Shown: positions 40,768-44,438 of the stretch, piece by piece
How the letters are laid out: every line of letters starts with the position of its first letter
Numbering within the stretch: the first letter of the stretch is position 1
NCBI RefSeq assembly: GCF_020616595.1
Contig: NZ_CP085278.1
Location: forward strand, 310,001 to 374,000
Length of the DNA: 64,000 bases
Reading direction: 5' to 3'
From: Lentilactobacillus laojiaonis
GTDB lineage: Bacteria > Bacillota > Bacilli > Lactobacillales > Lactobacillaceae
Notes under the pieces: model-generated
The model's input: only the letters and a program-made list of their open reading frames with translations
What the model was told of the DNA's origin: nothing
The model's database searches: none
Translations under genes and position numbers: made by a program

Positions 40768-41460
40768 ATGACATACGGAATAATTTGTGCAATGGATGAA
40801 GAAATTGCAATTTTAAAGGATAATTTAAAAAATCAATCAGTTAAGACAATTGGTAAAATGGAATTTTATCAAGGAACTTTGTCTAACAATAAAGTAGTAC
40901 TAGTTAAATCTGGAATTGGTAAAGTTCAAGCAGGAATTACTGCTTCAACTTTAATCAATGATTTTGAAGTAGATGCTTTAATTAATTCTGGATCAGCAGG
41001 TGGAATTGGCGAAGGTTTATCTATTGGTGATGTAGTAGTTTCAACCGAAACTGCTTATCATGACGTTGATGTTACGGCAGCTGGTTATGAAATTGGTCAA
41101 TTACCAGGTTGCCCAGCAAGATTCCCAGCTGCTAGAGAATTAGAAGAACAAATTATTGATGCGGCTAAGGATAGTGGTTTAAATACCCAACCAGGTTTAA
41201 TTGTTACTGGAGATCAATTTATTGCAGATTCTAAAGTAATTGAACAAATTAAAACTAATTTCCCAGATGCCCAATGTTCTGAAATGGAAGGAGCAGCGGT
41301 TGGCCAAGTTGCCTATAACAATGATGTACCGTATGTAGTTATCCGTGCTATGTCAGATGTTGGAGATGAAGATGCTGATAGTAACTTTGATGAATTCATC
41401 ATCGAAGCCGGCAAACGCTCTGCTCAAATGCTACTAAACTTTTTTGAAAAAGCTGAATAA
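40768..41460 (+). CDS. mtnN: 5'-methylthioadenosine/S-adenosylhomocysteine nucleosidase
   Basis: 230 aa, standard size. Cleaves MTA and SAH, recycling AdoMet by-products and producing the LuxS substrate. Motifs: N-terminal GIICAMDEEI, NSGSAGGIG (about 73-81), MEGAAVGQVAY (about 174-184) and the catalytic Asp in IRAMSDVGD (about 193-201). AAAGGAG precedes the ATG. Ends at a terminator. Confidence 0.95.
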   Translation: MTYGIICAMDEEIAILKDNLKNQSVKTIGKMEFYQGTLSNNKVVLVKSGIGKVQAGITASTLINDFEVDALINSGSAGGIGEGLSIGDVVVSTETAYHDVDVTAAGYEIGQLPGCPARFPAARELEEQIIDAAKDSGLNTQPGLIVTGDQFIADSKVIEQIKTNFPDAQCSEMEGAAVGQVAYNNDVPYVVIRAMSDVGDEDADSNFDEFIIEAGKRSAQMLLNFFEKAE

Positions 41461-41470
41461 TTAATCTATA

Positions 41471-41507
41471 AAATAAGTGAGTAACTAAGGTTACTCACTT
41501 ATTTTTT
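41471..41507 (+). terminator. nudF-mtnN operon terminator
   Basis: AAATAAGTGAGTAAC, loop TAAG, GTTACTCACTTATTT and further T's: a perfect 15-bp stem. Confidence 0.92.
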
Positions 41508-41551
41508 GTAATTAGGCAATCTGGTAATATAAATAAAAATGCGTTATTATG

Positions 41552-41595
41552 TATAATACTGGGTAAGTGCGACCTTCAAATCGAGATGCTACCAG
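41552..41595 (+). promoter_or_regulatory. Conserved thiolation-gene element, copy 1 (before cysteine desulfurase)
   Basis: TATAAT (41552-41557) is followed by an opening arm CTGG(G)TA (41559-41565), the 20-nt core TGCGACCTTCAAATCGAGAT (41568-41587) and a closing arm TACCAG (41590-41595). CGA and TCG inside the core form an inner dyad around CCTTCAAA. The core is identical to the copy before mnmA, and the arms differ there yet still pair. It could be a 5'-leader RNA or an operator; transcription from this TATAAT would start inside the opening arm. Confidence 0.8.
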
Positions 41596-41642
41596 AAATA
41601 TATTTTGAATAATAATTTTGATTATAGAAGGGTAAGAAGTTT

Positions 41643-42794
41643 ATGGTAGATGAAATCTATTTAGATAATGCAGCAACGACAAAAATTGATGGTGAAGTTT
41701 ACGATTTTATGACCGAAAAATATAAAACCGTTTATGGAAATGCATCTACACTCTATGGTTTAGGTAGAGAAGCCAAATCACTATTAGAGAATTCACGAAG
41801 CATCATTGCTAATAGCATTAATGCAGATGATGATGAAATTATCTTTACTAGTGGTGGCAGTGAAAGTGATAATACAGCTATTATGCAAACGGCGATAGCT
41901 AGAAGCGATTTAGGTAAACACATTATTACTACTGAAATTGAACACGAAGCAGTTTTACAACCACTAAAATTTTTGGAACAAATGGGTTACGAAGTTACCT
42001 ATTTATCAGTTGATGAATTTGGTAATATTTCACTTGATGATTTTAAAAAGGTACTAAGGGACGATACGATCTTAGTAACAATTATGAGTGGCAATAATGA
42101 AGTTGGTTCAATTATGCCCATTCATGAAATTGGTGAAATTTTAAAAGACCATCAAGCTTGGTTCCATACTGATGCGGTCCAAGCTTATGGACTTTTGGAC
42201 ATAGATGTTCAAAGAGATCATATTGATATGTTATCAACTTCAGCACACAAGATTAATGGTCCCAAAGCAGTAGGATTTTTATATAAAAAAGAAGGAATTA
42301 ATTTTCCTAGTCTTATTAAGGGTGGTCAGCAAGAAGAAAAACGTCGTGCGGGTACGGAAAATGTACCGGCAATTGCTGGGTTTGCGAAAGCTGTTACTTT
42401 AATTACTAACGAAGAAAAACAAACTCGTCAAACTAAATATTTTGAATTTAAAAATTATATAGTTAACGAATTAAAAAAACGCGATATCGATTTTGAAATT
42501 AATGGTAAAATTGAAGAAAATAACCTAAATCATATTTTAAACATTTGGTTTAAGGGAATTTCAACCTATGTATTACAAACTAATTTAGATTTAGATAAAG
42601 TAGCCGTATCTGGTGGATCTGCATGTACTGCTGGAAGTATTGAACCATCTCATGTATTAACAGCCATGTTTGGAGAAGCTAGTCCTCGTATTGCTGAATC
42701 AATTCGAATTAGTTTTGGTAAATACACTACTCGCGATGACTTAGATCGATTGATTAATTCATTAGATAAGACCATCAAACGTCTTAAAAAATAA
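41643..42794 (+). CDS. Cysteine desulfurase (NifS/IscS class, YrvO-like)
   Basis: 383 aa PLP enzyme that releases sulfur from cysteine as a persulfide. The PLP lysine is in SAHKINGPKAVG (Lys203), and the persulfide cysteine in SGGSACTAGS (Cys328); the N-terminal IYLDNAATTK is typical. With DUF1831 and mnmA downstream it is most likely the dedicated sulfur donor for tRNA 2-thiouridine, like Bacillus YrvO, and not part of an Fe-S (suf) operon. GAAGGG lies upstream of the ATG. Preceded by the conserved element. Confidence 0.9.
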   Translation: MVDEIYLDNAATTKIDGEVYDFMTEKYKTVYGNASTLYGLGREAKSLLENSRSIIANSINADDDEIIFTSGGSESDNTAIMQTAIARSDLGKHIITTEIEHEAVLQPLKFLEQMGYEVTYLSVDEFGNISLDDFKKVLRDDTILVTIMSGNNEVGSIMPIHEIGEILKDHQAWFHTDAVQAYGLLDIDVQRDHIDMLSTSAHKINGPKAVGFLYKKEGINFPSLIKGGQQEEKRRAGTENVPAIAGFAKAVTLITNEEKQTRQTKYFEFKNYIVNELKKRDIDFEINGKIEENNLNHILNIWFKGISTYVLQTNLDLDKVAVSGGSACTAGSIEPSHVLTAMFGEASPRIAESIRISFGKYTTRDDLDRLINSLDKTIKRLKK

Positions 42795-42811
42795 AATTTG
42801 AAGGTGATTAT

Positions 42812-43156
42812 ATGGCATTTGGTAAAATAGTTACTGTAACGGGTGATCAAAATACCTATGAAATTAGCCCTAAAATAAAAAAATATGCTTTAATGGATGT
42901 GGGATTCCAAAAGACTAAAACGGGTAATTTTAGCTTGGAACGTAATTTAGACCCAACTTCACCATATCAAGCTAACAGTCCTAAGGTTAAAATTATGGTT
43001 AATCAAGATTTAACAGGCTTTAAATTAGCTGTTACTACAGCTAATGGCTTACAAAGCATGAATATTTTTTCGGATCCTAAAAAAGCCGGAATGGTGCAAC
43101 AATATGAATACATTATTAAAAATTTAATCGATCGAGATATTTTAATAGTTAAGTAA
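42812..43156 (+). CDS. DUF1831 family protein
   Basis: 114 aa, no membrane segment or catalytic motif. Matches DUF1831 (LP2179-like) proteins, which in lactobacilli sit between a cysteine desulfurase gene and mnmA. The context suggests a role in 2-thiouridine synthesis, perhaps in sulfur relay, though it has no cysteine to carry sulfur. AAGGTGAT precedes the ATG, 18 bp after the desulfurase gene. Confidence 0.8.
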   Translation: MAFGKIVTVTGDQNTYEISPKIKKYALMDVGFQKTKTGNFSLERNLDPTSPYQANSPKVKIMVNQDLTGFKLAVTTANGLQSMNIFSDPKKAGMVQQYEYIIKNLIDRDILIVK

Positions 43157-43159
43157 TTT

Positions 43160-43200
43160 TAAGAGAGTGATTTTATAGCGAAAGTCACTCTCTTATTTTT
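43160..43200 (+). terminator. Terminator after DUF1831
   Basis: AAGAGAGTGA and TCACTCTCTT pair, with an internal TTT/AAA extension and a T-run. It separates mnmA from the desulfurase operon, so mnmA needs its own promoter. Confidence 0.85.
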
Positions 43201-43243
43201 TGTAACCAGAAGCTATGGAAATCCTTATAGAAATGAGTTATCA

Positions 43244-43287
43244 TATAGATTACTGGAAAATGCGACCTTCAAATCGAGATTCTCCAG
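43244..43287 (+). promoter_or_regulatory. Conserved thiolation-gene element, copy 2 (before mnmA)
   Basis: TATAGAT (43244-43250), TACTGG, opening arm CTGGA (43253-43257), the identical 20-nt core (43261-43280) and closing arm TCCAG (43283-43287). It ends 26 bp before the mnmA ATG and close to its GGTGAT ribosome site. The G-to-A change in the opening arm is matched by a C-to-T change in the closing arm relative to copy 1. Confidence 0.8.
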
Positions 43288-43298
43288 AATCTAATTGA

Positions 43299-44438
<1,140 letters not shown>

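Follow-up and report, generated by a model that had tools for sequence, protein, structure and literature searches.

A conserved RNA leader of mnmA in Lactobacillales and its second copy before iscS in Lentilactobacillus laojiaonis

Results

The window analysed here is a stretch of 64,000 nt (64 kb) from the genome of Lentilactobacillus laojiaonis. It encodes a cysteine desulfurase (iscS), a DUF1831 protein and the tRNA-thiolating enzyme MnmA, in that order, and both iscS and mnmA are preceded by a terminator-like site, a -10 box and a hairpin. The features of this region, all on the forward strand, are as follows.

41470..41505, +, terminator-like site between the gene at 40768-41460 (presumably mtnN) and iscS
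41545..41550, +, TATTAT, the iscS -10 box, with ACTGG 7 nt downstream, read from the sequence
41558..41595, +, hairpin copy before iscS, with P2 strands CGA (41570-41572) and TCG (41581-41583) around the loop CCTTCAAA (41573-41580); outer arms altered, pairing retained
41627..41631, +, GAAGG in the SD of iscS, complementary to CCTTC of the loop (pairing compared with shuffles)
41643..42794, +, iscS, a yrvO-like cysteine desulfurase gene (PF00266; NF002806, 313 bits, cut-off 304)
42812..43156, +, gene for a DUF1831 protein (PF08866, 142 bits)
43160..43195, +, terminator-like site that separates the DUF1831 gene from mnmA
43239..43244, +, TATCAT, the mnmA -10 box, with ACTGG 7 nt downstream, read from the sequence
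43252..43287, +, hairpin at the 5' end of the mnmA leader, state A (from covariance models and counts of pairs)
43253-43257 with 43283-43287, +, P1 of that hairpin, CTGGA with TCCAG
43263-43265 with 43274-43276, +, P2 of that hairpin, CGA with TCG
43266-43273, +, loop of that hairpin, CCTTCAAA
43265..43271, +, ACCTTCA, anti-SD strand of the predicted helix P4 of state B (folding of 194 and 190 leaders)
43277..43292, +, P3, an alternative hairpin predicted by folding, with arms AGATTC (43277-43282) and GAATCT (43287-43292)
43301..43307, +, TGATGGT, 3' strand of the predicted P4, overlapping the SD GATGGTGA at 43302-43309 (GATGG counts)
43314..44438, +, mnmA (NF001138, 483 bits, cut-off 284)

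The hairpins share a 20-nt core, TGCGACCTTCAAATCGAGAT, which is identical at 41568-41587, before iscS, and at 43261-43280, before mnmA. With up to three mismatches allowed, the core occurs at these two sites in the window, where chance would give 0.01, and nowhere else in the whole 1.24-Mb genome. A covariance model made from mnmA leaders alone recovered the copy at iscS with a score of 24.5 bits (E 0.0069 in 508 kb), and each copy lies 7 nt 3' of its -10 box. A first-pass annotation of this DNA had drawn attention to the shared core with TATA and TACTGG before it, and to arms that differ between the copies (CTGG(G)TA/TACCAG against CTGGA/TCCAG) around an inner CGACCTTCAAATCG; when the sequence was read again, all of these were present as described.

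The leader precedes mnmA in all 24 Lentilactobacillus genomes, this one included, and is the same in each from ACTGG to the start codon. A family model built from ten genus leaders, the iscS copy left out, matched 261 of 397 Lactobacillaceae genomes at E 0.1 or better, in 29 of 40 genera; the weakest of these matches are probably chance, and none of four weak ones that we inspected lay at mnmA. A wider model, built from 92 sequences with the iscS copy among them, matched 192 of 395 Lactobacillales genomes at E 0.01 (51 of 80 genera), and a pattern scan of named genomes returned at least 118 stretches, with Enterococcus, Vagococcus, Tetragenococcus, Desemzia, Isobaculum, Lacticigenium and many Lactobacillaceae among the matches listed. 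The element stood directly 5' of mnmA in 40 of 40 fetched loci of one set and in 78 of 80 of a second, where the remaining two end at the locus edge. Short-pattern matches away from mnmA in the search of the order (9 of 30 in the loci inspected) were taken as chance. The exact 20-mer was abandoned as a marker in relatives: at up to three mismatches it was found in 57 of 397 genomes, and among the matches listed all but those of this genome have three, most of them chance-like. Judged by sequence comparison, the element persists in relatives with altered stem letters, and the mnmA copy is an old one.

Thirty genomes were picked for their lack of a good model match, and mnmA was identified in 23 of them (E 1e-80). 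The hairpin is still present at 9 of these 23 loci, in tandem at three; the other 14 have no hairpin, and by eye mnmA there seems to lie close behind the preceding gene. The three tandem loci all belong to family f4, and we call them Streptococcus-like on the basis of Rfam matches to Streptococcus sRNAs beside mnmA. One Streptococcus-like leader (L366, also L414) keeps the first CCUUCAA-type hairpin and carries a short GAAA-loop hairpin in place of the second. Seven of the thirty genomes had no mnmA at E 1e-80 (G018, G016, G029, G039, G001, G006 and G007); these may have given up s2U34 synthesis or may carry an mnmA that has diverged strongly. In two genus genomes mnmA is in two and three pieces with stops (G364:C126 and G380:C6), possibly through assembly errors. 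Outside Lactobacillales, a strict stem-loop pattern that would miss divergent forms occurred in 6 of 183 genomes, in none of them before mnmA. Plasmid records held no near match to the mnmA region, and the exact 20-mer was not found in viral contigs.

Comparison of the leaders indicates that the hairpin is kept as a structure. Leaders were aligned to the covariance model and pairs counted over 80 distinct rows. Paired cells make up 99% for the outer stem, 98% for the inner stem and only 62% for the middle helix; for the whole hairpin the figure is 90%, compared with 20-40% when the pairing is slid. At one P1 pair the rows have G-C (41), A-U (29) or G-U (9) and never a mispair. P2 was scanned separately by taking each CCTTC before mnmA with at least three adjacent pairs, so that its pairing and the constancy of CCTTC are given by construction and the informative part is the two-sided changes. 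After removal of an accidental match 114 nt upstream of its gene (L377), which took the set from 87 to 86 distinct hairpins, the second P2 pair is G-C in 80 and A-U in 6, and the third, usually C-G, is G-C in three and A-U in one. CGA/UCG becomes CAA/UUG in two leaders (L316 and L323) and AUCAAA/UUUGAU in a third (L319), and ACGAA/UUCGU in other leaders may represent one added pair. Of the 87 hairpins, 29 have a 7-nt loop, which reads CCUUCAA in 24, and 58 have an 8-nt loop; in 86 of 87 loops CCTTC is followed by A. No covariation was found within Lentilactobacillus, where the leaders are too conserved for it. Some divergent leaders have by eye lost P1 and AGAAUCU and retain P2.

Stems that covary and use G-U pairs argue that the element acts as RNA. 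Compensatory pairing and a fixed association with one gene across species are the marks of a cis-acting leader; both were found here, and the mnmA element is a real cis-acting RNA element in Lactobacillales. The first-pass annotation had proposed either an RNA leader, folded into a hairpin whose loop is conserved and whose arms change in a compensatory way, or a DNA operator. Stem covariation and the presence of the element before mnmA across much of Lactobacillales bear out the first proposal; stem pairs maintained through G-U (A-U 37 and G-U 33 at one pair) and a start at the expected transcription start count against the second. Among 156 distinct segments upstream of mnmA leaders, 129 have the hairpin 7 nt past the best -10-like hexamer. 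An upstream reading frame was considered and dropped, since by eye its frames shift among relatives.

The downstream half of the leader, with a constant SD region and an alternative fold, is an addition to what the first pass described. A script found GATGG in the SD region of 171 of 175 distinct hairpin leaders; of 14 mnmA loci that lack the hairpin, none has it. The former count is inflated because some loci were fetched with a pattern that contained GATGG. More generally, many loci were fetched by patterns or models that require the loop or the SD, which inflates the counts for both. In the genus set, which was fetched by protein, GATGG is present in 24 of 24 leaders. One locus (L380) has a later SD-like GCAGG and retains GATGG upstream of it, and in two cases with a different SD, the iscS copy and L361, it reads GAAGG, which is complementary to CCUUC as well.

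Folding of 194 leaders with RNAfold predicts two mutually exclusive structures, with a mean SD pairing probability of 0.68 and P2 above 0.5 in 29%. State A is the hairpin, with P1, P2, the loop (CCUUCAA) and a free SD. The predicted state B hides the SD in helix P4, made of ACCUUCA and UGAUGGU with a constant U-U mismatch inside it, usually over AGAUUC/GAAUCU (P3). When each state was forced in 190 distinct leaders the mean energies were -11.0 kcal/mol for A and -11.5 kcal/mol for B, the mean of E(A)-E(B) being 0.5, and the gap was within 3 kcal/mol in 79%. The mnmA leader of this genome favours A (-15.1 against -11.0 kcal/mol), as does, more strongly, a Streptococcus-like tandem leader (-17.9 against -10.1 kcal/mol). 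By pair count state B is paired in 91%, compared with 17-60% when slid.

Other measures count against state B. P4 lacks covariation in the leader alignment, as both of its strands are nearly invariant, and the RNAalifold consensus contains the hairpin only. The duplex of loop and SD is no better for mnmA than elsewhere (median -3.8 for 134 mnmA and 348 other ORFs). Against shuffles, the duplex of the core with the SD region gave p 0.12 for the mnmA of this genome and a median p of 0.08 over 190 leaders (mean z -1.41), and the inner region gave a mean z of -0.92 (n=139). P3 is missing from some divergent leaders, and in several leaders of family f5 the inner region has no fold at all. Given near-equal energies on the one hand, and on the other no covariation, a hairpin-only consensus and a duplex no stronger than in other ORFs or shuffles, we grade state B as likely. 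A pseudoknot of loop UUCA with a downstream UGAA was dropped in favour of the nested fold; UGAA varies to AGAA in other species.

The iscS copy has a very different distribution. The element precedes iscS in one of 24 genus genomes, the present one, and in the other 23 the 170 nt before iscS are different and seem to be the tail of the gene upstream. Of the other Lactobacillales genomes matched at E 0.01, none has a second match, and a repeated search of 38 other genomes at E up to 2 gave weak second matches, at E 0.048 or worse. The regulon of desulfurase and mnmA put forward in the first pass is upheld for this genome, where both genes carry the element, and does not extend further: the iscS copy is present in 1 of 24 genus genomes and the mnmA copy in 24 of 24. 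Absence of the core in close relatives, named at that stage as evidence against the proposal, was found for iscS and not for mnmA. The iscS copy is not supported as a general regulon member, the joint element having been found in this genome only.

The first pass had also described the rest of the intergenic DNA as dissimilar. The two upstream regions in fact align collinearly (score 103): the match starts just past the terminator, takes in the -10 box and runs on to 26-30 nt beyond the hairpin. Compared with mononucleotide shuffles, the flanks alone gave p 0.0095 for the last 20 nt upstream, 0.0145 for 45 nt upstream and 0.0355 downstream, which is modest support, all in one direction. Collinearity past both ends of the hairpin, together with absence before iscS in the 23 relatives, suggests as the simplest origin a probable duplication of the mnmA promoter and leader to a site before iscS. 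The old SD region of this copy probably decayed, with GAAGG arising downstream as a new SD. Pairing of the core with the 44 nt that lead up to the iscS start codon is calculated at -13.1 kcal/mol, with p 0.0075 when compared with shuffles, and the iscS leader favours B (-13.6 against -7.2 kcal/mol for A). A loop-complementary GAAGG at iscS is possibly chance, since GAAGG also lies upstream of 4 of the 46 window ORFs of 150 aa or more. The copy amounts to a natural experiment, in which the core has stayed identical to the letter, the arms have changed with pairing kept and a new loop-complementary SD lies downstream.

A second cysteine desulfurase gene (G000:C1:784746-785861, minus strand) has a hairpin leader of its own, UUGG[AGUCGAA]CCAA, found in 6 of 6 fetched genus loci (L086-L091). 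At one of these (L087) the ORF that follows is, we assume, ThiI-like. GGAGTCGAACC of this leader is the reverse complement of a tRNA T-arm, and a search of the family at one mismatch returned matches mixed with apparent tRNA genes.

Searches against Rfam 15 placed no family over the hairpin at gathering score; at E up to 10 there were sub-threshold matches only, none of them over the hairpins, and no T-box model matched in these searches. The first-pass annotation knew of no published motif of this kind, and our search of the literature, in which subscription journals lay mostly outside coverage, likewise found no description of an mnmA leader; as far as that search reaches, the leader is undescribed.

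Discussion

To our knowledge, little is known of how bacteria control the levels of the enzymes that thiolate the tRNA wobble position, and a widely conserved RNA element before mnmA makes such control directly testable. On balance we think it probable that the element is a cis-acting leader, conserved across much of Lactobacillales, that controls mnmA translation by switching between states A and B. The mRNA would begin with the hairpin of state A, leaving the SD accessible; in state B the loop strand ACCUUCA would instead take up UGAUGGU and mask it. If both states form in the cell, B would be the off state and a signal would tip the balance between them, so that a factor favouring one state would set MnmA output. 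As a first guess, that signal might be MnmA itself or how far its tRNAs are thiolated. Were the U-U mismatch replaced by a full pair, mnmA might be locked off, possibly the reason why the mismatch is kept. The desulfurase encoded by iscS probably feeds MnmA, and with the leader copied before its gene iscS and mnmA would answer to the same signal.

Of the alternatives, the one that survives best is that MnmA binds its own leader hairpin as a mimic of the anticodon arm of tRNA Lys, Glu or Gln and blocks ribosome loading, state B then being incidental; we consider this unlikely. It would account for the position of the element, which precedes mnmA in the loci checked and here also the desulfurase gene, and the two tandem hairpins of Streptococcus-like genomes are what a binding site might have. 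The 7-nt loops carry UU at positions 34-35, like tRNA-Lys and tRNA-Glu, and over 13 nt the tRNA-Lys arm was the best of the 19 tRNAs in the window, tRNA-Gln not among them, with 9 of 13 matches against 8 for the next. However, Lys, Glu, Val and Gly tRNAs all score 5 of 7 over the loop, and as those for Val and Gly are not MnmA substrates the likeness is suggestive and not significant. Most loops have 8 nt, U33 is replaced by C, and the constant GAUGG would be left unexplained.

A riboswitch for a metabolite, for example a sulfur compound, with the hairpin as its aptamer, seems to us quite unlikely. A conserved loop coupled to a predicted SD-hiding fold is what such an element would show, but the constant part is small, with one loop and no larger pocket, and the divergent leaders noted above keep P2 without P1 or AGAAUCU. 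More speculatively, the loop could act as a decoy anticodon in the mnmA mRNA, bound or even 2-thiolated by MnmA. The enzyme would in this way measure its unfilled tRNA workload, the outcome would set the choice between the hairpin and the SD-hiding fold, and the sensor would have been copied to the gene of the sulfur donor in this reduced genome. We put this forward as a long shot.

A constitutive stabiliser of the mRNA 5' end, or an RNA thermometer without a ligand, could also be built from a 5'-terminal hairpin and two predicted states of near-equal energy. Stabilisation has no need of a constant loop sequence, and fourU thermometers pair the SD through UUUU, whereas here it pairs through CCUUC, which leaves this explanation very improbable. 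An operator in DNA, bound by a transcription factor over the start site, is scarcely credible, for despite its location at the expected start and its partial dyad the element has G-U pairs, conservation centred on the loop and a constant SD away from the promoter.

Several known systems resemble the leader in part. Translational riboswitches such as the preQ1 and SAM-II types hide the SD, and the mnmA leader shares with them a short 5' leader and two exclusive folds with the SD in one of them, here by prediction; it differs in its loop-based anti-SD and in having no known ligand and no Rfam match at gathering score. The thrS operator of E. coli provides autogenous control through imitation of an anticodon arm and is likewise a hairpin with a tRNA-like loop before the gene of an enzyme that acts on tRNA, but the likeness of the mnmA loop to the Lys and Glu arms is weak and binding is putative. 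Two Streptococcus sRNAs adjoin mnmA in Streptococcus-like loci, SpF03 (RF02426) upstream of the hairpins (L363) and Spd-sr37 (RF02419) downstream of mnmA (L356, L363 and L366), and neither covers the leader. RNA motifs of Lactobacillales, including asd, Lacto-rpoB, Lacto-usp and the L17 downstream element, have been reported (PMC2864571), which are likewise restricted to the order and were found by comparison; the main text of that report does not contain mnmA, trmU or thiouridyl. In B. subtilis a dedicated desulfurase, YrvO, is enough together with MnmA to produce s2U, and their genes lie together, as they do here (PMC5372745). Since those two proteins alone make s2U, joint control of desulfurase and mnmA would be sensible, and where B. 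subtilis has yrvO-mnmA, the present genome has separate promoters with the same leader on both genes.
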